A stretch of DNA of 64,000 nt from Marinagarivorans sp. (GTDB lineage: Bacteria; Pseudomonadota; Gammaproteobacteria; Pseudomonadales; Cellvibrionaceae): contig JANQJB010000166.1 of the NCBI GenBank assembly GCA_028281865.1, forward strand, positions 1 to 64,000, written 5' to 3'. Shown here one piece after another: positions 17,354 through 38,010 of this stretch (positions are counted from its first letter, which is position 1; each line of letters opens with the position of its first letter). The notes below the pieces were generated by a model. It saw nothing but the letters and a program-made list of their open reading frames with translations. It had not been told where the DNA came from and did not search any database. The translations under genes were made by a program, and so were the position numbers.

Positions 17354-18652
17354 CTAGTGATCCAGCGAATATAAAAATGCAGTCAAATAAGCTATTTCCC
17401 TTGGTTTCAGATCAATACCTGTCAATTCATGATTCGATTGTTTGCCAGAGTTCGGTGGAGAAATGTAATGGCGAATAACGGCGGGAACAGTCTGCGCACG
17501 CCCATCGTGAAAATACGGCGCAGTTTTTAGAAGATAACGTAGTGACGGCGTTTTGAAAGCGCCGTTCAACATGTGGTGCACATCTTTGTTCAAAAAACGC
17601 AATTGATAGCACTGCTCTTTCTTCGCATCAGAATACTGCCCCAAGCAATTAAACTCGTCCATTAACACAGCTTGAATACCCCATACGCGACCGTAATCGG
17701 CGTTTAACTCTCCGAATGTGCCCGTACCAATATTATGGAAATCATTGTTAGTCAACATCGGCCCATTGTGACATTGCAAACACTGCGTTTTCTGCATATC
17801 GGCAAAAAGTTTTGCACCGGCAATTTCAGCTGTGCTCAAAATATTGGCAGCACTTTCGTCACCATCAACAATATAACGCTTAACAAATTTATCAAATTTC
17901 GTTTCCGGTGGTAGTAGTGTCCGCTCATAGGCAGCAATAGCTTTACCTAAATTGGCATAAACATGATTGACATCAACTTGTGTGGACTCGGGAATAGCTT
18001 TCCAAGCTCTCTTCTCCAAAGGCAACCCTAAGGGACCTGCATTATCAGGCAACGAATTGACTAACTTATCGGGAAATTCGCCCCATATTTTTTGATACAA
18101 AGATTTCAATTTCGGAGTTTGGCCAACGGTCTTTAAAATAGCGGTTCTTGTTGACCCCATTTCGACACCCGCTTCAAACGGAATAAGCGCCTGTGACCAA
18201 AGCGAATCTCGTCTGCCATCCCAATAAAACCATTGTAACCAGGCGCTACCAATAACCGTGGGCGTATTGCGCCCCGTTAGCCCAATACCAAGCGCTTTAG
18301 GCAAACCATCAGTAAAAAATTTATCGGGTTGATGACAACTTGCGCACGAAATTTTCCCGTTACGACTTAAGCGCTCATCAAAAAAAAGTGCTTTTCCCAG
18401 TTCAGCCGCAGTCTTATCATCCGCAAAGCGATTTGACGGAGAGGGAGGAGGATCACCCAGAACGTGAAGACTCAATGAAAGTAGAATGCGTTTTTCTTTT
18501 TCGCTAAGAATTGGCTGTGTGGCAGCAATATGCAGTTTATTATCAGCAGCTTGCTTGTAAGTATTTTGTGCATAGCCAATTTGCGTATCGATCATTAACG
18601 CAGCAAGCAATGCGAACACGAAACTTACTAGCCGGATCGGATTCACAATCAA
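17354..18652 (-). CDS. Di-haem cytochrome c peroxidase/MauG-family protein
   Basis: A periplasmic enzyme of about 430 residues with two c-haem sites: CASCHQ (codons 18346-18332) in the N-terminal domain and CLQCHN (17782-17768) in the C-terminal domain. Family signatures include ALFFDERLSRNGKISCASCH, GLTGRNTPTVIGSAWLQWFYWDGRRDSLWSQA and KTAPYFHDGRA. Members reduce hydrogen peroxide or oxidise other substrates through a high-valent iron state. The start is uncertain: the frame is open to a TTG at 18733, overlapping the upstream gene by 62 nt, but TTG 18652 or GTG 18646 just after that gene gives a normal signal peptide (NPIRLVSFVFALLAALMIDTQIGYAQ). It follows the YtkA-like gene closely and lies downstream of the giant oxidase, which generates peroxide if active. 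Confidence 0.88.
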   Translation of the reverse strand: MIVNPIRLVSFVFALLAALMIDTQIGYAQNTYKQAADNKLHIAATQPILSEKEKRILLSLSLHVLGDPPPSPSNRFADDKTAAELGKALFFDERLSRNGKISCASCHQPDKFFTDGLPKALGIGLTGRNTPTVIGSAWLQWFYWDGRRDSLWSQALIPFEAGVEMGSTRTAILKTVGQTPKLKSLYQKIWGEFPDKLVNSLPDNAGPLGLPLEKRAWKAIPESTQVDVNHVYANLGKAIAAYERTLLPPETKFDKFVKRYIVDGDESAANILSTAEIAGAKLFADMQKTQCLQCHNGPMLTNNDFHNIGTGTFGELNADYGRVWGIQAVLMDEFNCLGQYSDAKKEQCYQLRFLNKDVHHMLNGAFKTPSLRYLLKTAPYFHDGRAQTVPAVIRHYISPPNSGKQSNHELTGIDLKPREIAYLTAFLYSLDH

Positions 18653-18671
18653 GCGCCGCGTTGCCAAATGC

Positions 18672-19091
18672 CTAATACTCAAGCTCAATATCAAACGTCG
18701 TGTTATCTTTAACGGTCGGCGTTTTAACACCAAACACTAACACCCAGCGACCGATCATATTAAATTTCATCCCTTCAATTAAATAACGACCGTTACCCAA
18801 ATTGCGTGTCACTTCCGGTTGCGACGGCATGCCATGCATATGTTCCGGCATACCACCGGTAATGGCAATTTGCGCGTCTGTGACAGGTTTACCGTCATGT
18901 GTTTCTATTGTAATAAACCAATCGTGAAAAGTAGAAATTGGAACGTGGCCTTTTTCCGGCCCGATAACAACATTAAATAATTTCTTTTCCGAAGCCTGAC
19001 TCCACATCAGTGCCTCACTCGCGCTCACAAGATTAGCGATAGCAACGGTGGATAAAAAACAGAGGATAATAAGCTGATATTTTTGTTTCAT
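18672..19091 (-). CDS. YtkA-like/FixH-type exported protein
   Basis: The 139-residue protein has a signal peptide (LIILCFLSTVAIANLVSA) and one small beta domain. That domain carries HDWFITIETHDGKPVTDAQIAITGGMPEHMHGMPSQPEV and NLGNGRYLIEGMKFNMIGRWVLVF, the pattern of YtkA-like domains (PF13115), which are related to FixH. The Met/His-rich loop GGMPEHMHGMP could bind a metal such as copper, but that is inference. The gene is followed with a 19-bp gap (or overlap, depending on the start) by the di-haem peroxidase gene, so the two are co-transcribed. Similar YtkA plus cytochrome peroxidase pairs are common next to secreted oxidases. Confidence 0.75.
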   Translation of the reverse strand: MKQKYQLIILCFLSTVAIANLVSASEALMWSQASEKKLFNVVIGPEKGHVPISTFHDWFITIETHDGKPVTDAQIAITGGMPEHMHGMPSQPEVTRNLGNGRYLIEGMKFNMIGRWVLVFGVKTPTVKDNTTFDIELEY

Positions 19092-19140: not shown

Positions 19141-19167
19141 AAAAAAGGCGTGCAAAGCACGCCTTTT
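19141..19167 (-). terminator. Rho-independent terminator of the giant oxidase gene
   Basis: On the minus strand AAAAGGCGTGC, a three-base loop and GCACGCCTTTT are followed by more T. The stem is perfect and lies 23 bp after the stop codon at 19190. It separates the giant gene from the YtkA-like gene, which then needs its own promoter or read-through. Confidence 0.85.
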
Positions 19168-19189: not shown

Positions 19190-22100
19190 TTAGTTCAAGT
19201 CTGCCGGTTGAGCTTCCAACAAGAACTTTTCTATCAAAGCAGCCTTAGCCGAATCAACATCATCGTGCGCCAATATGGCATCCAATATAGTCATTGCAGA
19301 ACCATCATGCAGGTATGGCGCACTATCCCACAACCCATGCAAACCAGGAGTGTCGAAACCTGTAAGTGGCCCACCTAAGCGCTGTCCACTGGCACTGTCA
19401 ATTGTTCCGACATTGTGCAGCGCATTGCTAGGCGAATCTGTCATCTGGACGCCACTGTGACACGATGCGCAGCCCTCGTCTTGGAAATGCTGCTTACCTA
19501 ACTGCGCATCAGCAGATAAACCGCCGTTGCGATCAGGAGACGCAGGCACATCTGTCAGTGAGTTAACATAAGCCGCCAGCGCATCAAGATCCGCGCTTAA
19601 ACCCGCCTTCGCGGGGCCCAGAGTAGCGGTTGTCGCGGTGAAATCAGCATTTGACATCAGCCCCGTGCCACCGGCCAAAGAACGGATTTGATTTTCAAAG
19701 TCCTGTACTTCGTCAAAATTAGCGGACCAATGCAAGCGCCCATGACCAGCGCCATGCCCTTTTAAGTTGATCGTATTGCGCACACCTTCGCCCATGCCAG
19801 TTAAATCCCAAACACGTCCGTCATCACCCCCGTCGTTATGACATGAGGCACAGCTCATATAGTTATCAAGCGCGAGCCGATCATCAGCAGCATCGTAGAA
19901 CAGCTGCTTGCCGTTCAATAGCTGTGCGCTTAGTGCCTCATTGCCAACCACCGCGATTGACTGGGATGTAAAGCCGCCAATTCCGCCGGTCAACAATAAG
20001 TCACGAATTGAGATAGCCGTGATACTGCGATCCATATAGTTGTGCACGAACAGTGTTTCACCGTTGCTTGATATCGCGAGGCCCTGCGGCGCGCGGCCAA
20101 CGGAAATTCGCGTTAAGCGGAAGCCGTTTTGCACGTCGTGAACTTCAATCTCACGCGCAGTTTCGAGTGCGACAAACAAATACTGGCCATTGCCACTGAA
20201 TACGGCTCCGGTCGCAACACTGGCGTTATCCAATTGGATACGCGCTCCAGTATTCGATGTCTCGTTGCCGAGATTGATGACCGATGCAACAGCGCGCACC
20301 GTTTGGTCGAAGGTCATACCCGGCCCGCCACGCAAGCCTCCTGACATAATGTTATCTTGTTTCGAAGGCACGTAAGCAGTTGTGCCATCGGGTGAGATAA
20401 CCGGAGCATTTAAGTAATTCGGCAACCCTGGGCCCGCCGACTCAGAGACACCACGATTAGAGTAACCCAGCGTAATCGTGTTCAAGGACGCCATAGAGCC
20501 CGCATTTACAACAAATACTTCACCACCTGCGGTCTGATATTTTGGTACAGCAGTACTTTCGTCATCGACAGGAGGTGTAACAAAGTTGCTCACATAGAGT
20601 TTACTGCCGTCAGCACTCAAAGCGAGATGGCGCGGCTTGCCACTTAACTCAGCAGTTCCTGCGACGCTCTTGTCCGATGTATTGATCTTAATTACTCGTG
20701 ACAAGGCCTCCTGAGCGACATAAACAAACTGCCCATTCGGTGCTACCACCAAACCGTGAGGCTCCGAACCAGCAGCGAGATTGATCGTATCGATTACCGT
20801 TTTGTTCACCGGGTTGATCACGCTGATAGTAGCGCTGCCCTTGTTGCTGACGTAGATCAAACCACTCGTGGGTGATACCGCTACCGACCAAGGTCTATCG
20901 CCCACCTGCACTTCCGCAGCAACATTTCCTGATGGAAACTCAACCACGCTGGCGGTGTCGTTATCGGGATTAACGTTCCAGACTCGGTCGATATTGTCGA
21001 CTGTGATAGTCGTGCTATTGAATGCCGGCGCCGCAGGGTTTACAACCAAGGCCGGGTCATTCGGGTATGCATCCGCATTGTCACCAACGCCATCGCCATC
21101 AGTATCAGCTGTTTCCGTCGCATCATTCGGGAACGCATCTTTATTGTCACCTACCCCATCGCCATCTGAGTCAACATATTCACTCGAATCGCTCGGGAAC
21201 TCATCGACACTATCTGGCACACCGTCAACATCAGTATCTGCTGGGAACGGACGAGGAACGAATTCAAGTACCTCTTGAGAATTGATCTCAACAGCATTGG
21301 TATTGTTGCCAGCAACCACAAATAAAGTATTGCCAAAGCTCGCGCCACCAGGTGCGTTGCGCGCAAAATTTAGATCGGGGAATACACGCCAAGAGTCAGT
21401 CAACACATCATACGATTCAACCTGTTCGTGCTCATCCACTTCACTCTCACCGGCAGCGACGATAAGCTCAGAACCCAAAGAAAATAGCGCAATTCCGGAA
21501 CGAGGCGTAGGCAATTTCTTATCGAGCGAGCTCCAGCTAGCACCACCAGCCGCTTCAAAATCGTACACATCAATCGTGTCTTCCGTATCGCCAAAGGGGT
21601 TATTTAGCTCCGGAACAAGCAAATTCGTGGCAGAACGTCTACCCGCAACGACATAGAGTTTATCCCCCTTTATCGCAGCGCGATGGTGATCGCGTGCGTG
21701 CGGTGCATCAGGCAATACTGTCCACTCCCCTGTCGCAGGATCGAAGGAATCGAACCAAGGAACAGCACCATCTTGGTGGCCGAGCGTATTGCCACCAATG
21801 ATATAAATTTTGCCTTTGTAGTTTACTGCAGCGGTCGAACCACGTTGACGCTCCTCTGGCACATAGCCCTCAACACGCCACTTCGCTGGGTCCGCCGGGT
21901 CAAAGCTATAAATTTCCGCAACACCTTGTTCTTTCGGGTAATAGCCAATCATTGCGCCGATGATGTAAACCCGATCACCCCAAACGACAGCTTGGAAGTG
22001 ATGAAAGTCAAGGCGAGTGTTGTCCTCTTCATCGCGTGGGGAGCCCCAGTTTTTCCATGTATTGTTCACCGGATCGTATTCGTTGACTCCACGATCACCG

Positions 22101-25100
22101 CGCCCACCCAGCAGGAACATTTTGTCACCAACGAGTATGTAATCATTCTCATGGCGCGCTTGAGGTGCACCCAGAGCGGGCTCAAGAATTTCCCAATTGC
22201 CAAGGTCATCTTGAGGCAAATCAGGGTTATTCGGGTATGGATCGGCATTGTCACCAAGACCGTCGCCGTCGCTATCAGCAGATTCCGTTGGGTCATTGGG
22301 GAACGCATCTTCGGCATTTAATACACCATCACCGTCACGATCGTTATCGGTGTTATCACCGATGCCATCGCCATCGATATCGCCCCATTCGCTGGGATCG
22401 TTAGGGAAGGCATCGTCCTGATCATCAATTCCGTCACCGTCCGTATCTTTAGTGCGCGTAGGATCATTCGGGAAATCATCCTCAGCATCGACTACACCAT
22501 CGCCGTCAGAGTCGGACTGCTGCGCATCACGTACGATTTGAATGGTAAAGCCTTCAGAAGGAACACCCTGCGCATCAACAGCAAATATCCAGTAAAAACC
22601 CGGAATCAACACGTTCGAGTTGTCATTCATATCAAGCGTGTAACTCGAACCAGACCCAGCGCTAAAACTCACTGGAATGAAACGCTGATCAGTATTGATT
22701 GAGTGTGTTGTTCCACTTAAGCGAATCATATTGAATTCGGCGATTCCAGCAGATGCATCCAAAACTACAGCCTCGCCAGCACTGGCTTGTTCTGGTCCCG
22801 AATTGATCGAAGGACGATCTGCAAGAGAGCCATCAGCGTTATAGAAATAGGATGGAGTATAAATCTGTGCATCCTTGTGGTTGGCACTACAGTTACCACA
22901 TGCACCGCCACCACCAGAGAATACACGGCCGTCTTTCATCAACAATGCCACGGAGTGATAGTTGCGCGGGATAGTATGGCTACTTAGATGTGTCCAGGTA
23001 TTCGTGTCAGGGTCCCAAAGCTCTGGCTGCAATATCGTGCCGTCATCATCGAACAGTTTTGCCGCAGTAGTACCGCCGACAACAAGCACCTTACCCGTTG
23101 GCAAGACAACCGAATTCTGGAAAGTTCTGCGCGCCAACATATTGGGCAGCTCTGTAACGACTGGGGCAGCACCATTAATATCAATGCTAAAGGCCTGATC
23201 CGAAGACGCGATTGCTTTCGACTGATCATTACCACCAGTAACAAGCACTTTGCCGATATCGTACATCACTGCAGAACCAAACATACGCGCCTGATCGCCC
23301 TCTTTACGCACGCCCGCAGCTTCAACCGAGCCCAAACCATCAGTTTCGAACCAGTGCATCGTAAATGTTGGGCCCGAATGGAATACTTTTCCGTTCGGCG
23401 CAACATGCATAAACGCGTACCACTGCATATCAGTACTGCCATTACCGTGAGGCATTGCGTTAACGTGATTTTGCTCGTCCTGCAACGGCTGCATGGTTGC
23501 ACCTGTAGTCAGTAACCAGCCGTTGTTATCAGAATAAACTTCTGAAGTGTTGCCAGCACCCAAAGCAAAGGTCGTGAATACACGATTATCCGGCAAGGTC
23601 ATCGCTGTTGGATACCAACGAGGCATATTCATATCCGGCAGAACGTGCCACATATCATCGCGGTAATTAAAGCTACCGGTTTGCGTTGTCGCTGGGTTTC
23701 CGCCAGATGTCAGCACCGTTCCATCCTCACGCATTGCAATACCGGCACAAAACTGATTGTGAATGGGGTGGTCAGTCATCACAAACGAACCGTCAATTGG
23801 ATCGTAAACGGACGATTTGGTTAAGCCACCATCAAAGGCAAGTGCCGAACCACCAAGCCAAGTTAAGATACGGCCATCAGGCAAGTTGGCTGCCGATACC
23901 GGAATATGTGGCCAATCAATAGCTCCGCCCCAGGTGCCGCCGATATGCGGCGCCAATGTTGGCGGTGGCACCAACTCTGCATTAATGCGATCAGTCAGCA
24001 ACGCATACTGCTCGGCGCCGGCATAGAAATCGTCACTATTGCCTTTAGCCGCGAGCACCTCAACCATCGCGCCACCCGTGGCCTCAAAATAATAAACTTC
24101 GACGGTGTGCAAACCTTCAGTAAGAAATAGAGAGCCACGCGTATCTGTAGGCAAGTGTTTCATTGGGTCGTTAACAACAACCACACCATTAACCTCGACG
24201 GACACACCATCATCCGAGCGCGTCAAGAAACTGTAATAGCCGTCCTCAGCCACATAAAAATCTCGCGTAAAGTACGCGGCAAAGTTGTTCTGATAAGGAA
24301 AGGTTGAATTACCCAAAGTCAAATCGTAGTAATCGTCAGCTTCCGCATAGTTGATCGCTTCAGTTGTCAACTCGACAACGTTAGGCTCGTTGTCCTTGTT
24401 AGCAATCAGGGCTTTCGCCTGGTTAAACGTGTTAAGTGCGCTGCCGGATTGTACAAATACGGCCTGGTATGGATCACTGTAATGCGACCGCGTTGGGTCG
24501 TTGGGATAAGCATCGAAGTTATCGCCCCAACCGTCGCCATCGCTATCGACCGTTTCATCGGGATTATCGGGTAAATCATCTAGTTCGTTGTTTACGCCGT
24601 CACCATCGCGATCAAGGTCAGAATTGTCACCAATCCCGTCGCCATCTATGTCACTCCATTCGCTGTCATCACCTGGAAAGACATCACTATTATCGCCAAC
24701 GCCATCGCCATCGGTATCAACGGTCTCCGTGGGGTCATTGGGGAACTCATCTTGACTGTCGAGTACACCGTCAAAATCCGAATCTGGCTCGCTGTTATAC
24801 AGGCACATACCCGATACTTTGGGCCAGTCTGTAACAAGGCCGAAATCGATGTCGATAACACCGTCCGTCACATAAGTGATGACGTTTTTCTTTATCGCCG
24901 TAAGCGTGGGAACTGCGGCCAAGATATCGAAGTCCTGAATTGCGAGCTTGTCTTCGACATATACATCAAATCGTCGAGTTCCAGGGCCACCCTGATCAGA
25001 TGCCGCTTGGAAATAGGTCTCAGCAAACAACAACTCAACGCGGTAAAAACGCTCTTCCGTAACGGGAACTTGGTAGCTAAAAATACCGAAGCGTTCTGAG

Positions 25101-27616
25101 TGATAAAGCTGATCGTCCAATGTATCTTCAATCTCAAATACGCGCGTACCTGTTTGACCACCCACATGGTAAGTGTCCGCTAAGTATTCAATACCATCAG
25201 CGCCCACCATCGCCGGGCCAGCCGAATTAATGCAGAAAAGGAGGTCGGGGTCTAAGTCCACACCCTCTGGAAACGGGTCGCTGTTATCTCCGATGCCGTC
25301 TCCGTCGGTATCGAGCCATTCGCTTGCATCGTAAGGGAAGGCGTCTACCGCATTCGCGAAACCGTCATTGTCCACGTCTGGGTCCAATTCATCCGCAATT
25401 CCATCGCCATCAGTATCAAGGGTTCGTGTGGGGTCGGTCGGGAACATATCAGCGTTGTCACCAACACCGTCGCCGTCAGTATCTTGCGATTCGTAGAAAT
25501 CGTTCGGGAACTCGTCATCGCCGTCGAGCACTCCATCAGCGTCCTGATCGCCGTCATTTCCATAGACACATAGGCCCGCAATTTTTGGCCAATCTGAAAT
25601 CACGCCAAAGGTGAGATCAAGTGTTCCATCCGTAACATTAACTGGGACCTTTTCAACCAAAGCAGTCGCGGCGGGCACTTTCGTAAGAATGTCGTAATCG
25701 TTGAAGATTTGACCGCCTTCGGCATAAATATCGAAAACACGTGAACCGGGGCCACCTTGGCTACTCGCTGCTTGGAAATAAGTTTCCGCCATAAACAGCT
25801 CGAGGCGATAGTTTCCTGTACCTGGAACCGGAATAGCATAGCTAAATTGACGGCTGCGCTCGGTTTGAAAAATAGGATCGTCAACTGTCCCAGCGATATC
25901 AAAACCCACCGAAAACGACTGACCACCAATGTAATGAGTATCGGGCAAAAATTCTACGCCATTGACATCTGTGTGGGCACCGCCACCTGAGTTTATACAC
26001 ATGACCAAATTCGGATAACTGACTGGACCAAACGGCGTAATGTCGCTATTGTCGCCGGTGCCGTCTCCATCCGAGTCTAACCACTCTGTCGGATCCAATG
26101 GGAAAGCGTCTGCACCGTTCGCGAATCCGTCATTATCGATATCGGGATCGCTATTGTTGCCGGTACCGTCGCCATCGGTATCGTAGGCCTCATTAGAGTT
26201 ATTCGGGAACGCATCGCCGTTATCGCCAACACCATCGCCATCGCTGTCGACGCTTTCGTTGGGGTCGTTCGGGAATTCATCTTCGCTGTCTGGAACACCG
26301 TCGCCGTCGATGTCACCCTCACTACTGTAGACACAAAAACCCGATATTTTCGGCCAATCACTCTCAAGGCCAAAACTAATATCAAGGTTGCCGTCTACCA
26401 CATTTACCAGGTCGGTAGTTTGAAGGGCTGTGGCGGACCCAGTTTGCGCAAGAATGTCAAAATTGTCGTATTTCAGCTCGCCTTCAAGGAAAACATCAAA
26501 TACGCGAGAGCCAGGCCCACCGGAGGAGGATAGTGCTTGGAAATAAATTTCGGCAAACAATAATTCAACACGATAAGTTCCCGGCTGCGACACAGGAACG
26601 CTATAAGATAACGGACCATAACGCTCAGTCTGATACACCTCATCGTCAAGCGTATTAGCAATTTCAGTAACATAGGAGCTGACAGAGCCAGAGCTATAAT
26701 GCTGATCAGCTTGATAGAGGACTCCGCTGGTGGACATAAAGTCTCCACCACCAGAGTTCACACACATGATCAAATCGGGATCAGGGCCATCGGGGGTAGG
26801 ATCGCTGTTATTACCCAAACCGTCACCATCATTGTCGGCCCACTCAGTCGCGTCGTCAGGGAAGGCGTCGGCAGCGTTATCCACTCCATCACCATCGCGA
26901 TCAGCGTCAGCATTGTCGCCTATTCCATCACCGTCGAGGTCAGCCCAATCGCTCGAATTGTTAGGAAAAACATCAGCGTTATCGCCAACACCATCACCAT
27001 CTGTATCAAACTGTTCGCTAGCGTCGTTGGGAAATGCATCTTCGCTGTCGTTAACTCCATCTCCATCACTATCGCCAGCACTGGAGTAGACACATATTGA
27101 AGAAATTTTCGGCCACTCAGTTTCGACTTCGAATGACAAACTGAGCGTGCCGTCTTGTACTAGAACATTTGAGGTTTCTGTTATCGCAGCCGCAGGTGCA
27201 GTATTCGCGAGGATGTCATAGTCATCCAAAATCAAACTTCCTTCGGCCCGTACATCAAAAACACGGGCGCCGACGCCAACATTAAAATTTAATACTTGGA
27301 AGTAGATTTCGGCAAAATTAAGTTCAACGGTGTAGAAACCAGCGCTAGGGACGGGAATTTCATAATCAAAATTGCCATAACGCTCACGCTGATAGACGGG
27401 ATCGTGGTCGGTATCAGCTATTGCCGTGTTCACGCGGCTCGACCTGCCGCCGCTGTAGTATTGATCAGAAGTGTAGAGGGTTCCATCAGGCGCTGTGTAG
27501 CCATTACCACCTGAATTAATGCAAATAAGAGGGCTTTCTTGTCCCAAGGTGCCGCTTGCACTCAAAGAGAGAATTAGCGTCACCGCAACAGCAAATGTAG
27601 TCCTAACTTCAAACAT
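19190..27616 (-). CDS. Giant secreted copper-radical oxidase / cytochrome chimera (2808 aa)
   Basis: ATG 27616 follows a GGAG site and starts a signal peptide (ending SASGTLGQ); the frame is open to 27703. Domains (approximate residues): malectin 26-179, 278-435, 531-690, 789-944; between and after them, six blocks of thrombospondin type-3 calcium repeats (5+5+5+5+5+3 DxDxDG units); PA14 1047-1206; galactose-oxidase-type AA5 propeller with DUF1929 end 1224-1695; Kelch propeller 1804-2121; YVTN propeller 2199-2530; C-terminal two-haem cytochrome/CCP-like part 2557-2808 (CASCH at 19853-19839 and 19471-19457, plus SAPYLHDGSA). AA5 residues are all present: Cys1290 and Tyr1335 (cross-linked cofactor), Tyr1553-His1554 and His1638 (copper). 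The Trp that stacks on the cofactor in galactose oxidase is not evident. Expected chemistry: sugar or alcohol plus oxygen to aldehyde plus hydrogen peroxide. Sugar-binding modules and calcium-stiffened linkers suggest action at polysaccharide outside the cell. Confidence 0.85.
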   Translation of the reverse strand: MFEVRTTFAVAVTLILSLSASGTLGQESPLICINSGGNGYTAPDGTLYTSDQYYSGGRSSRVNTAIADTDHDPVYQRERYGNFDYEIPVPSAGFYTVELNFAEIYFQVLNFNVGVGARVFDVRAEGSLILDDYDILANTAPAAAITETSNVLVQDGTLSLSFEVETEWPKISSICVYSSAGDSDGDGVNDSEDAFPNDASEQFDTDGDGVGDNADVFPNNSSDWADLDGDGIGDNADADRDGDGVDNAADAFPDDATEWADNDGDGLGNNSDPTPDGPDPDLIMCVNSGGGDFMSTSGVLYQADQHYSSGSVSSYVTEIANTLDDEVYQTERYGPLSYSVPVSQPGTYRVELLFAEIYFQALSSSGGPGSRVFDVFLEGELKYDNFDILAQTGSATALQTTDLVNVVDGNLDISFGLESDWPKISGFCVYSSEGDIDGDGVPDSEDEFPNDPNESVDSDGDGVGDNGDAFPNNSNEAYDTDGDGTGNNSDPDIDNDGFANGADAFPLDPTEWLDSDGDGTGDNSDITPFGPVSYPNLVMCINSGGGAHTDVNGVEFLPDTHYIGGQSFSVGFDIAGTVDDPIFQTERSRQFSYAIPVPGTGNYRLELFMAETYFQAASSQGGPGSRVFDIYAEGGQIFNDYDILTKVPAATALVEKVPVNVTDGTLDLTFGVISDWPKIAGLCVYGNDGDQDADGVLDGDDEFPNDFYESQDTDGDGVGDNADMFPTDPTRTLDTDGDGIADELDPDVDNDGFANAVDAFPYDASEWLDTDGDGIGDNSDPFPEGVDLDPDLLFCINSAGPAMVGADGIEYLADTYHVGGQTGTRVFEIEDTLDDQLYHSERFGIFSYQVPVTEERFYRVELLFAETYFQAASDQGGPGTRRFDVYVEDKLAIQDFDILAAVPTLTAIKKNVITYVTDGVIDIDFGLVTDWPKVSGMCLYNSEPDSDFDGVLDSQDEFPNDPTETVDTDGDGVGDNSDVFPGDDSEWSDIDGDGIGDNSDLDRDGDGVNNELDDLPDNPDETVDSDGDGWGDNFDAYPNDPTRSHYSDPYQAVFVQSGSALNTFNQAKALIANKDNEPNVVELTTEAINYAEADDYYDLTLGNSTFPYQNNFAAYFTRDFYVAEDGYYSFLTRSDDGVSVEVNGVVVVNDPMKHLPTDTRGSLFLTEGLHTVEVYYFEATGGAMVEVLAAKGNSDDFYAGAEQYALLTDRINAELVPPPTLAPHIGGTWGGAIDWPHIPVSAANLPDGRILTWLGGSALAFDGGLTKSSVYDPIDGSFVMTDHPIHNQFCAGIAMREDGTVLTSGGNPATTQTGSFNYRDDMWHVLPDMNMPRWYPTAMTLPDNRVFTTFALGAGNTSEVYSDNNGWLLTTGATMQPLQDEQNHVNAMPHGNGSTDMQWYAFMHVAPNGKVFHSGPTFTMHWFETDGLGSVEAAGVRKEGDQARMFGSAVMYDIGKVLVTGGNDQSKAIASSDQAFSIDINGAAPVVTELPNMLARRTFQNSVVLPTGKVLVVGGTTAAKLFDDDGTILQPELWDPDTNTWTHLSSHTIPRNYHSVALLMKDGRVFSGGGGACGNCSANHKDAQIYTPSYFYNADGSLADRPSINSGPEQASAGEAVVLDASAGIAEFNMIRLSGTTHSINTDQRFIPVSFSAGSGSSYTLDMNDNSNVLIPGFYWIFAVDAQGVPSEGFTIQIVRDAQQSDSDGDGVVDAEDDFPNDPTRTKDTDGDGIDDQDDAFPNDPSEWGDIDGDGIGDNTDNDRDGDGVLNAEDAFPNDPTESADSDGDGLGDNADPYPNNPDLPQDDLGNWEILEPALGAPQARHENDYILVGDKMFLLGGRGDRGVNEYDPVNNTWKNWGSPRDEEDNTRLDFHHFQAVVWGDRVYIIGAMIGYYPKEQGVAEIYSFDPADPAKWRVEGYVPEERQRGSTAAVNYKGKIYIIGGNTLGHQDGAVPWFDSFDPATGEWTVLPDAPHARDHHRAAIKGDKLYVVAGRRSATNLLVPELNNPFGDTEDTIDVYDFEAAGGASWSSLDKKLPTPRSGIALFSLGSELIVAAGESEVDEHEQVESYDVLTDSWRVFPDLNFARNAPGGASFGNTLFVVAGNNTNAVEINSQEVLEFVPRPFPADTDVDGVPDSVDEFPSDSSEYVDSDGDGVGDNKDAFPNDATETADTDGDGVGDNADAYPNDPALVVNPAAPAFNSTTITVDNIDRVWNVNPDNDTASVVEFPSGNVAAEVQVGDRPWSVAVSPTSGLIYVSNKGSATISVINPVNKTVIDTINLAAGSEPHGLVVAPNGQFVYVAQEALSRVIKINTSDKSVAGTAELSGKPRHLALSADGSKLYVSNFVTPPVDDESTAVPKYQTAGGEVFVVNAGSMASLNTITLGYSNRGVSESAGPGLPNYLNAPVISPDGTTAYVPSKQDNIMSGGLRGGPGMTFDQTVRAVASVINLGNETSNTGARIQLDNASVATGAVFSGNGQYLFVALETAREIEVHDVQNGFRLTRISVGRAPQGLAISSNGETLFVHNYMDRSITAISIRDLLLTGGIGGFTSQSIAVVGNEALSAQLLNGKQLFYDAADDRLALDNYMSCASCHNDGGDDGRVWDLTGMGEGVRNTINLKGHGAGHGRLHWSANFDEVQDFENQIRSLAGGTGLMSNADFTATTATLGPAKAGLSADLDALAAYVNSLTDVPASPDRNGGLSADAQLGKQHFQDEGCASCHSGVQMTDSPSNALHNVGTIDSASGQRLGGPLTGFDTPGLHGLWDSAPYLHDGSAMTILDAILAHDDVDSAKAALIEKFLLEAQPADLN

Positions 27617-27994: not shown

Positions 27995-28849
27995 CTACAG
28001 TTGCTTTATTTTTATATTGCGATAATAGATTTCTGCCCACTCAGCTTGTAACGCGATATTGCCCTCAGCGAGTGGGAGAATTTGGTCTGCCTGATTTTTA
28101 TATGCCATATCGTAAATTTGGTTAACTAATTTTCCATTTAAATAAAATAATGCGGATTTATTTTTTCTTACCACAATGTCGATATAGTTCCACTCACCGC
28201 GCTCCCTCTCCATTGCCTCTGTTGTTCTATTCGAGCGTCGATTAGGCGACCCGTCACCAAAAACTATCGGCTCAGCATCGCGCTTCCAATAGGCTCTTTT
28301 TTGCTTTGGGTCATAACCCATACTCGATGCCTTAGCGAGCGTTTTACCCAACACCCATAAATCACCTGAAACATAAGGGTCTCCGGGCACCCCTGCACCA
28401 ATTTGCATTTCTACAGAGGCTGGCCAAACGACACTTAAATCGGAGTGACAATGAAATAATACTCCGGCATCACGCACTGCTTCAGCGCGCGGCGCAAAGC
28501 GTTTTTCTCCCCATTTATATTCGAGCTGTAAATGATAATTCTCGTACTTTTTATCACTGACAATTGTTGCGTGATATTGCGGTGAGCCCTCCGTCGCACT
28601 GGCGTAGACATGAATGCTGTTATCGGTAACGGTAAAAATTTCTTCAATAGGTAAGCTTTGATTATCGCCGCCTTTTTCTCCACGATACATGCTCCAACCC
28701 GACAAATCCTTTCCATTAAACAAATACTCCCACTCGGCCTTGTGCTCTATCGCCGGCGGAGGTGCCGTGCTAACACAACTCGTCAAAACCGATACCAACA
28801 ATATATTTGTAACGGTGAGAAAACTGCGCTTGGTATTTCTTCTATTCAT
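27995..28849 (-). CDS. DUF1080 (3-keto-disaccharide hydrolase family) lipoprotein
   Basis: The 284-residue protein has a type II signal peptide with lipobox LTSC (Cys25). The rest is one concanavalin-like DUF1080 domain: EWEYLFNGKDLSGWSMYRGEKG at the start, YENYHLQLEYKWGEKRF, DAGVLFHCHSD, ASVEMQIG and the closing NIALQAEWAEIYYRNIKIKQL. Members characterised so far act on 3-keto-glucosides or 3-keto-disaccharides made by sugar oxidases, though many in the family are untested. A second DUF1080 domain ends the fusion protein at 43855. It lies directly upstream of the giant oxidase on the same strand but 378 bp away, so co-transcription is not certain. Confidence 0.85.
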   Translation of the reverse strand: MNRRNTKRSFLTVTNILLVSVLTSCVSTAPPPAIEHKAEWEYLFNGKDLSGWSMYRGEKGGDNQSLPIEEIFTVTDNSIHVYASATEGSPQYHATIVSDKKYENYHLQLEYKWGEKRFAPRAEAVRDAGVLFHCHSDLSVVWPASVEMQIGAGVPGDPYVSGDLWVLGKTLAKASSMGYDPKQKRAYWKRDAEPIVFGDGSPNRRSNRTTEAMERERGEWNYIDIVVRKNKSALFYLNGKLVNQIYDMAYKNQADQILPLAEGNIALQAEWAEIYYRNIKIKQL

Positions 28850-28895: not shown

Positions 28896-29204
28896 CTACA
28901 CATCAGGGCTGCGAACGTAATCGAGTTCAATAAAATCCGATACTTGTTTCAGCCAATAATTTTCGACAAAGGCAATATGTTGCGGATGGTTATTATAAGC
29001 CTCGTATGCATGCTGAGTTTCAAAGTACATCGAAAGCGCATATTCAAAGGAGTTTTTTTTGCCTACCTGTTTCAGCACTTCAAACTCCTCCACTGCGGCA
29101 ATTTCTGATAGCGCGCGCGCCGCGCAAAAAAAGGCACGAATATCACCTTCTTCTAGATTTGGTTTAAACTGAAACGCAACCGTATGTTGAATCATCGCCG
29201 ACAC
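28896..29204 (-). CDS. Dabb domain (stress-responsive A/B barrel) protein
   Basis: The 102-residue protein is a single ferredoxin-like Dabb domain. It opens MIQHTVAFQFKPNLEEGD, has the FEYALSMYFETQHAYEAYNNHPQHIAFVE core and ends FIELDYV, which is the standard pattern. Dabb proteins form dimeric barrels; some are enzymes for small aromatic or polyketide substrates, but most have no known role. No signal peptide, so it is cytoplasmic. It lies 46 bp upstream of the DUF1080 lipoprotein gene on the same strand and could share a transcript with it. Dabb and DUF1080 genes are often close together in sugar-catabolic loci. Confidence 0.85.
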   Translation of the reverse strand: MSAMIQHTVAFQFKPNLEEGDIRAFFCAARALSEIAAVEEFEVLKQVGKKNSFEYALSMYFETQHAYEAYNNHPQHIAFVENYWLKQVSDFIELDYVRSPDV

Positions 29205-34045: not shown

Positions 34046-35065
34046 ATGACTGTTGACTCGTCAAAGGCGAATACTGAACGAGAACCCAATATTGAGAAAA
34101 AAGCCATTGAATGGCTGGCAAGGCTCCAAGCACCCGATCTAACAGCCGAACAAGAACGTGCTTTTTTTGAATGGTTAGAGGCCGATGAGAAACATCAAAA
34201 GGCCTATATCGAAGCCGAAAGCCTTTGGCAACGCGGCGAGGTAATCGCTCAGGCTGCAAACGTTTCCGGTAATCAAGATAAAGCAACTTCTGTATTTTCT
34301 CGGGCTCAATATTTCGAAGGCTGGCGAGTTGCTGCTGCGATTTTCTTGGTTGTAGTCGTCAGTGTTAGTTACTGGCAACTTCAACCAGCCCCTAAGCAAG
34401 CACAATGGCAGAGTTTCGCTACTGCCATAGGTGAACAAAACTCGTGGTTACTGGAGGATGGGTCCGAAGTTACACTTAATACACAGTCTAAGATACGTAT
34501 TGACTTTAACTCGAATGTTCGCGCCGTCTACCTTGATCAGGGCGAAGCGTTTTTTAAAGTGACGCATAAACCTTCACATCCGTTTGATGTTGTGACTAAG
34601 GCGGGCAGAATTCGCGTTCTAGGAACACAATTTTCTGTCTATCAAGCAGACAAACAAACACTTGTTACAGTTTTAGAAGGCAAGGTCGGCCTGGATACAA
34701 AAGGCTCAAGCCCAGAGCAATACACTGCAGACGCCACGGTAGCTGCCAACCAACAACTGTCTTTTGAACGTGCACAAAAGCAACTAAGTCCCAAAAAAAT
34801 CAATGCAAATAGCGAGTTAGCCTGGCTAAAAAGCCAACTGATTTACCGTGGCGAAAGCTTGCAAACCGTTATCGATGAGTTAAATCGTTATTACCCGATG
34901 CAAATTCAATTAGATGATAGTCAGCTAGCGACTCAAAAAGTTATTGCCGTCATTCAACTCGCGGAACTCGAAACTACCTTGGCAACGCTGGAAAACTCAC
35001 TGCGTCTCAAAGCACATGTCGACGAACAAAAAGGTACGGTAATATTGAGCGCGGCGGAAAATTAA
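34046..35065 (+). CDS. FecR-like transmembrane anti-sigma factor
   Basis: The 339-residue protein shows the full FecR order. An N-terminal DUF4880 segment (about 14-60, KKAIEWLARLQAPDLTAEQERAFFEWLEADEKHQKAY) holds the cytoplasmic sigma-binding part. One membrane helix lies at about 92-112 (WRVAAAIFLVVVVSVSYW). The periplasmic FecR domain (about 125-225) contains LEDGSEVTLNTQSKIRID and GQVLGTQFSVYQ-like strands. A C-terminal DUF4974 segment (LIYRGESLQTVIDELNRYYPM) contacts the receptor's signalling domain. It lies 89 bp after the FecI gene and 269 bp before the TonB receptor gene. Confidence 0.9.
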   Translation: MTVDSSKANTEREPNIEKKAIEWLARLQAPDLTAEQERAFFEWLEADEKHQKAYIEAESLWQRGEVIAQAANVSGNQDKATSVFSRAQYFEGWRVAAAIFLVVVVSVSYWQLQPAPKQAQWQSFATAIGEQNSWLLEDGSEVTLNTQSKIRIDFNSNVRAVYLDQGEAFFKVTHKPSHPFDVVTKAGRIRVLGTQFSVYQADKQTLVTVLEGKVGLDTKGSSPEQYTADATVAANQQLSFERAQKQLSPKKINANSELAWLKSQLIYRGESLQTVIDELNRYYPMQIQLDDSQLATQKVIAVIQLAELETTLATLENSLRLKAHVDEQKGTVILSAAEN

Positions 35066-35334
35066 AAATCTTTATAAAAATCTTGAGGGGTCTCGTGAGT
35101 CACGTGTCCTAACAATAGCAGCTCTGCGAATCAGTATTTAGACAAGTATTTAAGGAGTGAATAGGACTGTTAATGACTACAGGGAAGTTAGCAGAATGGA
35201 GCAGAATGGATTCAGCCTGCTGCTAAGCTATGGTGAGCCAGCACGAGACCATAATGCGGCTGCAAACCCTAAACACTTTTACGATGGTTCGACAGTAACT
35301 GAAAAGCGAATGCCTGCGTAACAATACAGTTAAA

Positions 35335-38010
35335 GTGAGACCACTGGCACTCAATTTTCATAACGGTGAGTTTAATATAGAAAAATCAGAAGTAGATTCT
35401 AGAGCACGTCAAAACAAAACGATACCAAGCGTGATAGCTTTTAGCCAAACCAATGGAGTAATTTTACTTACCGCAGTTCTCAGAAGCTGTTTTATATTAA
35501 TTTTAGTTTTTTATACTGCTCTGTTAAATGCCCAGCCTTTTACAAAGGAACAGAGACGCCCTCAACTTAACATTATTCATTTTGATTTACCTAGACAAAG
35601 CCTGCAGGTTTGCTTAGTTGAATTTGCACTACAAGCGAACGTTAATCTAATTGTACCTAATGAAATTGTCTCCGGTTTCTTTTCCGAACCGGTCATCGGC
35701 GCGTACACCGCGGAAAATGCATTAACGAAAATTCTGGCGAATACGCCGCTGAAATATCGTTTTCTCAAACACCCTCAAGCGCTCCTAATTGAACCTGTAG
35801 CGAAAAATGATGTATCTCCCTCCTCTGCAAACAATGTCATATTGGAAGAAGTGACCGTTCGAGGAGTTCAGTATCCATTTTACTATTCAACCATAAGAGC
35901 TAGTTCACAAGTTCACAATAACCTTTCAACGTTTGACACTGCCCGATACATTAACGTTTTACCCAAGCAACTTGTGATTGATCAGCACCCCGATGACCTC
36001 AGCGATGTGCTGCGTTACAGCAGTGGTATCACACCTGCAGATGGGCTGGCAGACAGTAACGACGACTTTTTTATTCGCGGCTTTCCAAGGAATGCTTTGT
36101 ATATAGATGGCTTTCGTCTAGAGCAAAACAACGGTATCAAAATTCGTCCTGCGACTATCGAAAACATTGAGATCGTAAAAGGCCCGTCGACCTTATTTTA
36201 CGGGCAGGCCGAGCCGGGAGGAATTGTTAATATCATTCGCAAGAAGCCGCGATTAAATGGGCAAAATACAGTATCCATATCGACCGGATCGGGTAATTTG
36301 ACCGAACTCTATAGCGATTTAAATTCACCCGCATTTTTAAATAACAGGGCGCTTACTCGAGTTATTGTAGAAAAACAACGTCAGTCTGAATTCAGAGATT
36401 GGAATTCACTTGAGCACGAGTTAATTGCGCCCTCCCTAAGCTGGCAATTTAGTCAAGCTACATCGTTTAACGTCGGCGCAGAACTTCAGCGCATTTCCCA
36501 AATCCGTGAGCAAGGTGCAATTGTGCTAACGCCAGAAAGCAACAACGTCAACCTTGTTGGCATTAAACTCGCAGGGCGTCAAGCACAACCGAATTTCGAT
36601 AGCTCGTTTGCGTTGTTCAATGCGGAATTCACACATCATATAAACCGAGATTGGAATATCCGCGGAAAATTCTTTAGACAACGTGAAAATCGCCAAGGTG
36701 TTAGGGGTAGAGCAGATTTATTGCTCAGCGACGATATCCTAATTGAGTCCGATAACCTAAACCCGGATATAATTACCATTCCCATCGGCGGTATGGGCAT
36801 AGAAATCCCGGTCGGTACGGAAATTAGCTCAGGCGAAGATCAATTTATTTCGGTTGCAACGCTGCAAAGCCTATATGATGAACGAGGAAAGACTCAGGCC
36901 CAGCTCATCCGATTTTCGTTAGACGGGACAGCAGACACAGGTGCAATCACCCACCACCTTGCGGCCGGGATCGACCAACAGCAAGAGCGGCTTTACGAAA
37001 ATTTTACGCTTGAAGAACGCCACGATATACGCCAACTTAGCTTGAGCCAGCGCGAGCAAACAACAGCGCTTGATCAAATTGAAGCCGTCGTCAACAGTAA
37101 CCCAAATCTGGGTGAGCTTTCCGTTATAGAACAAAGAATTCGTAACAACGATTACGGCATATACGCCCAAGATACCGTCGAGTTCAACGAATATTGGCTC
37201 GCATCCATCGGTGCACGCTACACCGTCACAAACGCAAAGCTCGACAAATTTAACCAAACAGCCACTATCGATTTAAATCGATATGAAGCTCTCTCTTCCC
37301 AACTGGGTTTAATTTATAAGCCTAGTGCTAGCGCTTCATGGTATTTAAATTATAGTGAAGCTATGCGAGCAAACTATCAATTCGATGACATTGGGACAGC
37401 AATCGATAAACCAGAGTTATCCGAACAATTAGAGCTAGGCCTTAAATCTTTTTTACTCAATGGGAAATTTTTATCAACATTTTCACTGTTCTCGATTGAC
37501 AAGAACAATATCGTCAACATTAATTTTGAAGAGGGTAAACGTGTTGCAAGCTTAGGCGGAAAACAACAAATAAATGGGCTTGACTTAGATTTCAGCTATC
37601 AAGTTTCGCGTTCTTTAAATATTATCGCCTCGGCTTCGTATCTAGATCCAAAAATCACTACGGGAGCTAATAGAAACAATCAACCAAAACTCGTGACAAA
37701 TTATACTGGGAGTATTTTTCTAAACTATCAAATCAAGCAAGGCGAAGCACGCGAGCTATCTTTTAACTTTGGCTCTTATACGGTGGGAGATCGATTTGTC
37801 GAGAACAACAACCACACAGAGATTCCGGGTGTCACGGTATTTGATGCGGGTATAAGTTATCGTTACACAATCAACAAAACCAACGCCAAATTTCAAATCA
37901 ATGTGCGTAACTTAACGGATGAACTATATTTCTCAGCCGTCGAGGGTGCGATTAGAACCAACCGTGGATCAGGTCGAACAACGACAGCAACTTTGGCATT
38001 TTATTTTTAG
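35335..38010 (+). CDS. TonB-dependent siderophore-type receptor with STN signalling domain
   Basis: The 891-residue outer-membrane transporter probably starts at GTG 35335, after which about 42 residues precede a signal-like segment (SCFILILVFYTALLNAQ). The start is therefore uncertain. The STN domain (about 75-130, FDLPRQSLQVCLVEFALQANVNLIVP) links it to FecR. A TonB box-like ILEEVTVRG follows near residue 168. The plug (YSSGITPADGLADSNDDFFIRGFPR; IEIVKGPSTLFYGQAEPGGIVNIIRKKP) fits ferric-siderophore receptors. The 22-strand barrel ends with aromatic TTATLAFYF. Together with the FecI/FecR genes it forms a self-regulated uptake system, most likely for an iron chelate. Its stop overlaps that of the convergent HTCS gene. 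Confidence 0.9.
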   Translation: MRPLALNFHNGEFNIEKSEVDSRARQNKTIPSVIAFSQTNGVILLTAVLRSCFILILVFYTALLNAQPFTKEQRRPQLNIIHFDLPRQSLQVCLVEFALQANVNLIVPNEIVSGFFSEPVIGAYTAENALTKILANTPLKYRFLKHPQALLIEPVAKNDVSPSSANNVILEEVTVRGVQYPFYYSTIRASSQVHNNLSTFDTARYINVLPKQLVIDQHPDDLSDVLRYSSGITPADGLADSNDDFFIRGFPRNALYIDGFRLEQNNGIKIRPATIENIEIVKGPSTLFYGQAEPGGIVNIIRKKPRLNGQNTVSISTGSGNLTELYSDLNSPAFLNNRALTRVIVEKQRQSEFRDWNSLEHELIAPSLSWQFSQATSFNVGAELQRISQIREQGAIVLTPESNNVNLVGIKLAGRQAQPNFDSSFALFNAEFTHHINRDWNIRGKFFRQRENRQGVRGRADLLLSDDILIESDNLNPDIITIPIGGMGIEIPVGTEISSGEDQFISVATLQSLYDERGKTQAQLIRFSLDGTADTGAITHHLAAGIDQQQERLYENFTLEERHDIRQLSLSQREQTTALDQIEAVVNSNPNLGELSVIEQRIRNNDYGIYAQDTVEFNEYWLASIGARYTVTNAKLDKFNQTATIDLNRYEALSSQLGLIYKPSASASWYLNYSEAMRANYQFDDIGTAIDKPELSEQLELGLKSFLLNGKFLSTFSLFSIDKNNIVNINFEEGKRVASLGGKQQINGLDLDFSYQVSRSLNIIASASYLDPKITTGANRNNQPKLVTNYTGSIFLNYQIKQGEARELSFNFGSYTVGDRFVENNNHTEIPGVTVFDAGISYRYTINKTNAKFQINVRNLTDELYFSAVEGAIRTNRGSGRTTTATLAFYF

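Follow-up and report, generated by a model that had tools for sequence, protein, structure and literature searches.

Introduction

In the fungal AlcOx-Perox pair, a copper-radical oxidase of family AA5 is reactivated from its inactive Cu(II), non-radical state through one-electron oxidation by a haem peroxidase, which reportedly activates its partner oxidase without substrate (PMC9770985). Outside this fungal tandem, the natural activation of copper-radical oxidases is an open question, and bacterial AA5 enzymes have been little studied. Here, we analyze a bacterial locus that brings an AA5 domain and a di-haem domain together on one predicted chain. It lies within a window of 64,000 nucleotides from Marinagarivorans sp. 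(assembly GCA_028281865.1, contig JANQJB010000166.1, positions 1 to 64,000), which also carries genes for a YtkA-like protein and a stand-alone MauG-type di-haem enzyme beside this giant gene. With both parts on one chain, and with recurrent copper-carrier-like and MauG-type neighbours, the locus opens activation, the handling of peroxide and the loading of copper to direct tests.

The AA5 domain shares the Cys-Tyr and copper-ligand residues of galactose oxidase and other solved AA5 enzymes (PDB 1gof, 9g43 and GlxA 4unm), and the model of a homologue shares their fold. The neighbouring genes resemble MbnP/MbnH, MopE/SACCP and CorA/CorB, where a MauG-like di-haem enzyme likewise accompanies a partner protein; in MopE, the copper site includes a kynurenine formed from Trp (PMC3621798 for both points). 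An earlier, sequence-only reading of this DNA had stated that no characterised enzyme was known to have such a layout, and we found no paper on the fusion among the literature matches listed, a survey of titles and abstract openings with preprints and most subscription papers outside its scope.

Results

A recurrent AA5-YVTN-di-haem family

The giant gene is a single uninterrupted frame of 2808 residues on the minus strand, running from an ATG at 27616 to 19190. The sequence-only reading had described this one chain and had omitted its strand; the plus-strand translation of 19190-27616 contains many stops. Since the long layout is shared by independent genomes, a frameshift merging two genes, which would have undone that reading, is unlikely. 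The homologue in Marinobacter changyiensis, for example, is 3167 amino acids long with the same long layout, and its AA5 region is 66% identical.

To collect homologues, we carried out a long-protein search that admitted only lengths between 0.55 and 1.75 times the query, a range that favours fusions. The search returned 906 matches with E <= 1e-20 among 7983 scored, and all family counts out of 120 (or 110 with haem) refer to the best 120 of these 906, with the window's protein included in the alignment. An AA5 domain, then a YVTN propeller, then a haem domain with two CxxCH sites were found in 110 of the 120 listed long AA5 proteins; the other 10 have no CxxCH. The order that the sequence-only reading had proposed looking for elsewhere therefore does recur. 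Accessory modules differ between homologues while this core is constant, and the interchangeable domains, identified by Pfam accession among the 120 listed proteins, include malectin, NPCBM, F5/8, PA14 and Ricin.

A genome scan retained 80 loci from 98 relatives. Together with further sampled genomes and the window, and after removal of the duplicates L031, L057 and L116, these loci gave an AA5 tree of 96 rows. Fused genes are present in seven phyla (Pseudomonadota, Myxococcota, Verrucomicrobiota, Chloroflexota, Acidobacteriota, Deinococcota and Rhodothermota). Of the 86 rows in the main clade, 53 are fused genes and 17 are unfused genes whose 3' end is intact; the other 16 were set aside, either because their 3' end is cut off or, for L088 and L106, because the AA5 and haem parts are on neighbouring frames. 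The fused/unfused label changes three times on this clade, according to a quick tree in which rows on long branches are uncertain. Few genomes of the class carry AA5 genes: PF09118 is present in 13 of 369 genomes of the class sample and in 6 of 58 close relatives, and both counts include the window's genome. The AA5-YVTN-di-haem layout is a recurrent family and not a one-off.

In the two loci L088 (8839-15699) and L106 (2776-10985), the AA5 and haem modules lie on neighbouring or overlapping frames, which are either true two-gene forms or assembly frameshifts.

The giant gene and the features of its core are listed below, all on the minus strand.

19190..27616, minus: giant gene, 2808 amino acids, with four malectin domains, PA14, AA5, Kelch, YVTN and di-haem parts (translation, Pfam, structure matches)
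22535..23950, minus: predicted AA5 copper-radical oxidase domain, residues 1223-1694 (Pfam, structure matches, alignment)
23747..23749, minus: Cys1290, aligned with the cross-link Cys of galactose oxidase (alignment; Cys in 116/120)
23612..23614, minus: Tyr1335, aligned with Tyr272 of galactose oxidase, with Trp1334 just before it (counted on the alignment; 120/120)
22955..22960, minus: Tyr1553-His1554, copper ligand positions (alignment; each 120/120)
22703..22705, minus: His1638, copper ligand position (alignment; 120/120)
19994..21016, minus: YVTN propeller, residues 2201-2541, with homology to hydrazine synthase beta (homologue comparison, structure search)
19217..19948, minus: di-haem domain, residues 2557-2800, with homology both to hydrazine synthase gamma and to bacterial cytochrome c peroxidases (bCcPs) (profile and structure searches)
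19838..19852, minus: CxxCH haem site 1, residues 2589-2593 (motif; 110/110)
19457..19471, minus: CxxCH haem site 2, residues 2716-2720 (motif; 110/110)

Pfam and solved-structure matches bear out the domain set first read from the sequence, namely four malectin domains, PA14, AA5, Kelch, YVTN and a C-terminus with two CxxCH sites. The Pfam scan of the giant protein found Malectin in four stretches (E = 1.6e-115), PA14, Kelch families, Lactonase, Cytochrom_C and GO-like_E_set (PF09118, E = 4.8e-18). Its match to CCP_MauG (PF03150) has 25.8 bits, barely above the cut-off of 25.6, and its match to RoxA-like_Cyt-c (PF21419) has 23.9 bits, below the cut-off of 26.7. In the solved-structure search, the YVTN part matched hydrazine synthase beta as well as a surface-layer propeller of archaeal origin.

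Copper-radical residues of the AA5 domain

Residues 1223-1694 match solved galactose oxidase structures with E-values down to 1.1e-97. The copper ligands Tyr, Tyr, His and His (Y1335, Y1553, H1554 and H1638) are kept in all 120 aligned listed proteins, window's included, and the Cys of the Tyr-Cys cross-link (C1290) is kept in 116 of them, with Ala in the other four. We take Tyr272 of galactose oxidase to be its radical Tyr, the aligned Cys to be the cross-linked one, and the copper-ligand roles to carry over likewise. The AA5 assignment of the sequence-only reading thus stands, with intact copper ligands and the cross-link Cys present, and the AA5 part likely has oxidase chemistry.

The sugar oxidation proposed in that reading is one possibility. 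Trp290 and Arg330 of galactose oxidase, presumably its galactose-binding residues, correspond to G1353 and S1394 here (counted on the alignment), so these galactose-specificity residues are absent, and both columns are variable across the 120 listed family members. Galactose is consequently unsupported as the substrate.

The four AA5-YVTN-haem proteins with Ala at the cross-link Cys position (P0100, P0106, P0116 and P0117) are a natural experiment on radical chemistry where the cross-link is missing.

Conservation and relatives of the di-haem domain

Both CxxCH sites, W2603, D2604, E2610 and R2613 are invariant in 110/110 fused haem domains, as are H2629, W2630, E2636, D2639, F2640 and R2645. 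The SAPYLHDGSA motif of the window's protein starts at residue 2765; within this PYxHDG-like motif, P2767 and H2770 are each kept in 109/110 fused haem domains, Y2768 in 98/110 and D2771 in 88/110. Position 2784 is His in 105/110 and Met in 4/110.

A haem-domain profile built from 34 sequences was run against solved structures. It matched hydrazine synthase gamma with 80.9 bits (E = 1e-21) and the bCcP 3o5c with 79.0 bits, a near tie that also appeared in a single-sequence search, and we dropped the idea that the domain is closest to hydrazine synthase gamma alone. The same profile matches other bCcPs, MauG and 6e1c ('Di-heme enzyme'), which we take to be MbnH.

Partner genes near AA5 loci

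The nearest neighbours of the giant gene lie downstream on the same strand.

18672..19091, minus: ytkA-like gene, 139 amino acids, predicted copper-binding, M81/H84/H86/M112 (PF13115, alignment, predicted fold)
17354..18733, minus: stand-alone MauG/MbnH-type di-haem gene, near or overlapping the ytkA end (Pfam, NCBIfam, alignments)

The YtkA-like protein matches PF13115 with 46.4 bits (cut-off 25.9), and its predicted fold is nearest to the copper-binding CrdA; the partner in the window is therefore a PF13115 YtkA and not an MbnP (PF20243). The start of the MauG-type gene is uncertain, with GTG 18646 or TTG 18652 likelier by eye. Its product matches PF03150 (E = 1.6e-44) and falls below the NCBIfam cut-offs used for the MauG (TTQ) and MbnH equivalogs, TIGR03791 (152.6 versus 443.85 bits) and TIGR04039 (127.9 versus 362.85 bits). 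Its residues W171, D172, G173, Q181, E191 and Y423 are invariant in 23/23 aligned sequences and are supported by bCcP alignments; we take the WDG, Gln, Glu and Tyr423 to be key di-haem enzyme residues, with the Tyr at an axial position.

We compared 97 AA5 loci, including the window, of which 61 are well-flanked (the AA5 frame is complete and has 2 kb or more on either side), and counted as a partner any MauG-type gene accompanied by a YtkA- or MbnP-type part within 3 kb. Among the well-flanked loci, 25 of the 40 fused genes have a partner, versus 3 of 21 unfused genes (p = 4e-4, uncorrected for relatedness). Without L088 and L106, the counts are 25/40 versus 1/19 (p = 2e-5, likewise uncorrected). 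The unfused genes with a partner are these two, which have their haem part on a neighbouring frame, and the truly unfused L067. The partners of fused genes are YtkA plus MauG at 15 loci and an MbnP-type part fused to a MauG part at 10; L101, which has a DHOR-type enzyme only, is not counted here, and would bring the count to 26/40.

YtkA and MauG form a single protein in L050, L051, L064, L070, L078 and L089. In many Verrucomicrobiota, the partner frame combines MbnP and CCP_MauG, as found by Pfam (PF20243) in the two loci tested and by a derived profile in 17, and the catalytic part of the L091 protein has 6e1c as its best match (E = 3.5e-55). No partner is present at five other loci of this phylum whose fused genes are well-flanked (L093, L114, L120, L122 and L123). 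When 857 neighbour frames, including the window's, were clustered, MauG/YtkA/MbnP was the only plainly linked cluster of at least three loci, with 40 loci; the next largest, with 15 loci, looks by eye like an ABC transporter. DHOR-type di-haem genes (PF06537) also lie near one unfused and one fused AA5 gene (L032:535-1920 and L101:7638-8993, respectively), and neither was taken as a MauG partner.

The YtkA-MauG pair beyond AA5

Across the class sample, we counted YtkA proteins of this type at a cut-off of E < 1e-20, set after seeing a gap between 1.7e-25 and 5.4e-12. The type is present in 19 of 369 genomes, and in 7 of 13 AA5 genomes versus 12 of 356 others (p = 4e-7); after subtracting the suppliers of query rows (G000 and G101), it is present in 5 of 11 AA5 genomes (p = 4e-5). 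A MauG gene adjoins or is fused to YtkA at 25 of 26 fetched YtkA loci, and L169 has an AA5 piece instead.

YtkA-MauG pairs are also present in 12 genomes without AA5, and the neighbours scanned there include a copper amine oxidase and proteins without known copper. A pair dedicated to AA5 was rejected, since it is also found without AA5, and YtkA-MauG is consequently better described as a wider module that lies near many such copper-radical oxidases. For these other neighbours, 10 frames (one each from 10 of the 26 YtkA loci) were scanned with Pfam and 8 with NCBIfam. The Pfam scan identified one copper amine oxidase, three phosphoesterase-like proteins and four choice-of-anchor-B proteins, with a weak propeller match in L186 and no match in L171; the neighbour frames of L179 and L170 had no NCBIfam match.

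At L168 (7366-11448), the pair directly adjoins a copper amine oxidase gene (PF01179), which we take to encode another copper enzyme with a protein-derived cofactor. Pairs are situated by large 5'-nucleotidase/SoxB-like proteins in L174, L176 and L182, and by choice-of-anchor-B (LVIVD propeller) proteins in L183, L187, L188 and L189; the latter proteins could be unrecognised copper proteins.

Other features of the giant gene and the window

The remaining parts of the giant gene, whose product is predicted to be secreted, and two nearby features are as follows.

27539..27616, minus: signal-peptide-like N-terminal stretch, residues 1-26 (judged by eye)
27086..27529, minus: malectin domain 1, about residues 30-177 (Pfam; borders by eye from Cys positions)
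26777..27079, minus: first of several D-x-D-G-D-G repeat linkers (motif count)
26327..26770, minus: malectin domain 2, about residues 283-430 (Pfam; borders by eye)
25562..26005, minus: malectin domain 3, about residues 538-685 (Pfam and solved-structure match; borders by eye)
24797..25240, minus: malectin domain 4, about residues 793-940 (Pfam; borders by eye)
24062..24385, minus: PA14 domain, residues 1078-1185 (Pfam)
21251..22198, minus: Kelch propeller, residues 1807-2122 (Pfam and homologue comparison)
19143..19167, minus: terminator-like hairpin in the interval between the giant gene and ytkA (sequence and folding)
27995..28849, minus: upstream gene of the 3-keto-disaccharide hydrolase family, PF06439 (Pfam)

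The D-x-D-G-D-G motif has 23 matches across the whole giant protein, and its linkers are likely calcium-binding rods. The 71-nt stretch around the hairpin folds at -22.2 kcal/mol (z = -3.6). A pattern scan for promoters and terminators missed it, and found fewer sites than chance for both (8 promoter-like versus 17.4 in shuffles, 9 terminator-like versus 13.5).

A Dabb-domain gene (28896-29204) also lies upstream of the giant gene on the same strand. Membership of the 3-keto-disaccharide hydrolase and Dabb genes in the system is unsupported, as they appear in no neighbour cluster of at least three loci. Further away, positions 34046-41918 hold a FecR-type gene, a TonB receptor gene and a gene for a 1303-amino-acid hybrid sensor kinase with an AraC-type domain, which are likely a separate uptake and sensing locus.

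Discussion

We tentatively propose that the giant protein is an alcohol or sugar oxidase, whose own haem domain and MauG-type neighbour would keep the radical oxidised and consume peroxide, and whose copper would come from the YtkA-like protein. Judging by their families, the malectin and PA14 modules would anchor the protein to a glycan. The AA5 domain, judging by its conserved residues, would turn a primary alcohol into an aldehyde while reducing O2 to H2O2. This H2O2 would serve for the reactivation of AA5 by one-electron oxidation, carried out either by the chain's own haems or by the MauG-type enzyme next door, and the copper would be brought by YtkA. MauG may, in addition, oxidise YtkA, in parallel with the action on MopE that has been proposed for SACCP (PMC3621798). 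The residues favour the MauG-type neighbour as the putative activator, and the fused domain as a handler of peroxide or electrons.

A stronger form of this proposal, which we consider rather doubtful, is a covalently built-in haem activator fed by the oxidase's own H2O2, with a YtkA/MbnP and MauG/MbnH pair that loads copper and sets the radical cofactor; together they would constitute a widespread, undescribed class of extracellular metalloenzymes. If true, the chain would be the first of the copper-radical enzymes to carry an on-board switch, and the pair the first assembly system for bacterial AA5 of this type.

Several observations weigh against the proposed activation and copper loading. 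Aligned by the haem profile to the neighbouring MauG-type enzyme, H2784 falls on Tyr423, and gaps lie opposite Gln181 and Glu191, in a poorly aligned stretch. We take the Gln and Glu of the WDGR...Q...E segment to be the distal residues of di-haem peroxidases. Because of H2784 and the missing Gln181/Glu191 counterparts, the fused domain is predicted to be a variant of the bCcP/MauG superfamily with a His/His second haem, and it may be no peroxidase. The 'haem peroxidase-like' C-terminus of the sequence-only reading therefore survives as a di-haem domain of this superfamily, and its peroxidase assignment becomes only putative, given also the tie with hydrazine synthase gamma. The four Ala-for-Cys homologues still have two CxxCH sites and the remaining copper-ligand residues. 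The predicted structure of a compact homologue (L080, 1194 amino acids) has a pTM of 0.63, so that no firm packing of oxidase and haem modules is obtained. No partner is nearby for 14 of the 40 well-flanked fused genes, besides L101 with its DHOR-type enzyme, and the partner enrichment is uncorrected for relatedness. AA5 and YtkA are side by side only in G000, G101 and G399 of the seven genomes with both; G082, G246, G351 and G357 have them on separate contigs, and several of the AA5 hits there are unfused. The YtkA-MauG pairs in genomes without AA5 belong here too, as does a statement from 2013 that no data then tied MbnP homologues to copper (PMC3621798). Later work on MbnP/MbnH reportedly includes a copper site in MbnP. 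A single-operon reading is also weakened, since ytkA and the giant gene are separated by the terminator-like hairpin.

The haem module can be read in other ways. The haem module may be an electron outlet, passing electrons from AA5 through a low-spin haem to periplasmic cytochromes, so that the enzyme would act partly as a dehydrogenase and make little H2O2. Of the two solved structures that the haem domain matches best, one is hydrazine synthase gamma, and the domain has no aligned Gln/Glu pair, and both points agree with an outlet; fused proteins nevertheless keep the AA5 radical-site residues, the model shows no firm packing, and known AA5 enzymes reduce O2 directly. On balance, we consider an outlet unlikely. 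Somewhat less likely still is a second catalyst, in which the haem module would use AA5-made H2O2 to oxidise, for example, phenols, polymers or a partner protein, as a two-step extracellular enzyme. Weak family matches to MauG (protein modification), RoxC (a putative rubber dioxygenase) and hydrazine synthase are consistent with catalysis, as is the retention of H2629, W2630, E2636 and D2639 in 110/110, but there is no candidate substrate, and a core that stays while accessory modules vary fits the coupling of two catalytic parts.

Another possibility is a modular surface protein, with domains joined without functional coupling and with its propellers and sugar-binding parts serving adhesion. 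The interchangeable accessory domains are what it would predict; the AA5-YVTN-haem order in 110/120 listed proteins, its three changes on the tree, the conserved catalytic residues and the recurrent MauG-type neighbour all run counter to it, and we regard it as improbable. Returning to the activated oxidase that we propose, the 'self-contained' machine of the sequence-only reading may not hold, as a YtkA-like protein and a MauG-type enzyme adjoin the giant gene and recur by such genes.

Compared with galactose oxidase, the window's protein does not keep the Trp290/Arg330 positions and combines its oxidase domain with malectin, PA14, Kelch, YVTN and di-haem parts. A fold search with the L080 model placed galactose oxidases and other AA5 enzymes first, the propeller 1l0q at rank 28 and hydrazine synthase beta at rank 29, with no match to the haem part alone among the 50 matches listed. 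The likeness to fungal AlcOx-Perox is a copper-radical oxidase with a haem protein able to activate it; there, the activator is a separate class II haem peroxidase, whereas here a c-type di-haem domain is on the same chain and a MauG-type enzyme is separate (PMC9770985).

The order of YVTN and di-haem parts is that of hydrazine synthase beta and gamma (5c2v), as in the beta-gamma fusion model NF052342. Hydrazine synthase gamma binds haem gamma-I by three Cys (PMC12607021), whereas the fused haem domain here, which is attached to AA5, holds only four Cys, all inside CxxCH, leaving no third Cys for such a haem. The window's partner pair differs from MbnP/MbnH in having a YtkA-like protein instead of MbnP and an enzyme far below the MbnH cut-off, although MbnP-CCP_MauG fusions adjoin AA5 fusions in many Verrucomicrobiota loci. 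With the copper proteins YtkA/CtaK and CrdA, the window's YtkA-like protein shares a PF13115 match and a predicted fold nearest to CrdA (PMC13344008, PMC9182242); it has an M-x2-H-x-H-G motif and a later Met, whereas Helicobacter pylori CrdA has no His (PMC9182242). MbnP/MbnH-like pairs may have the AA5 fusions as a client, and an oxidase that is self-coupled could be of practical use.

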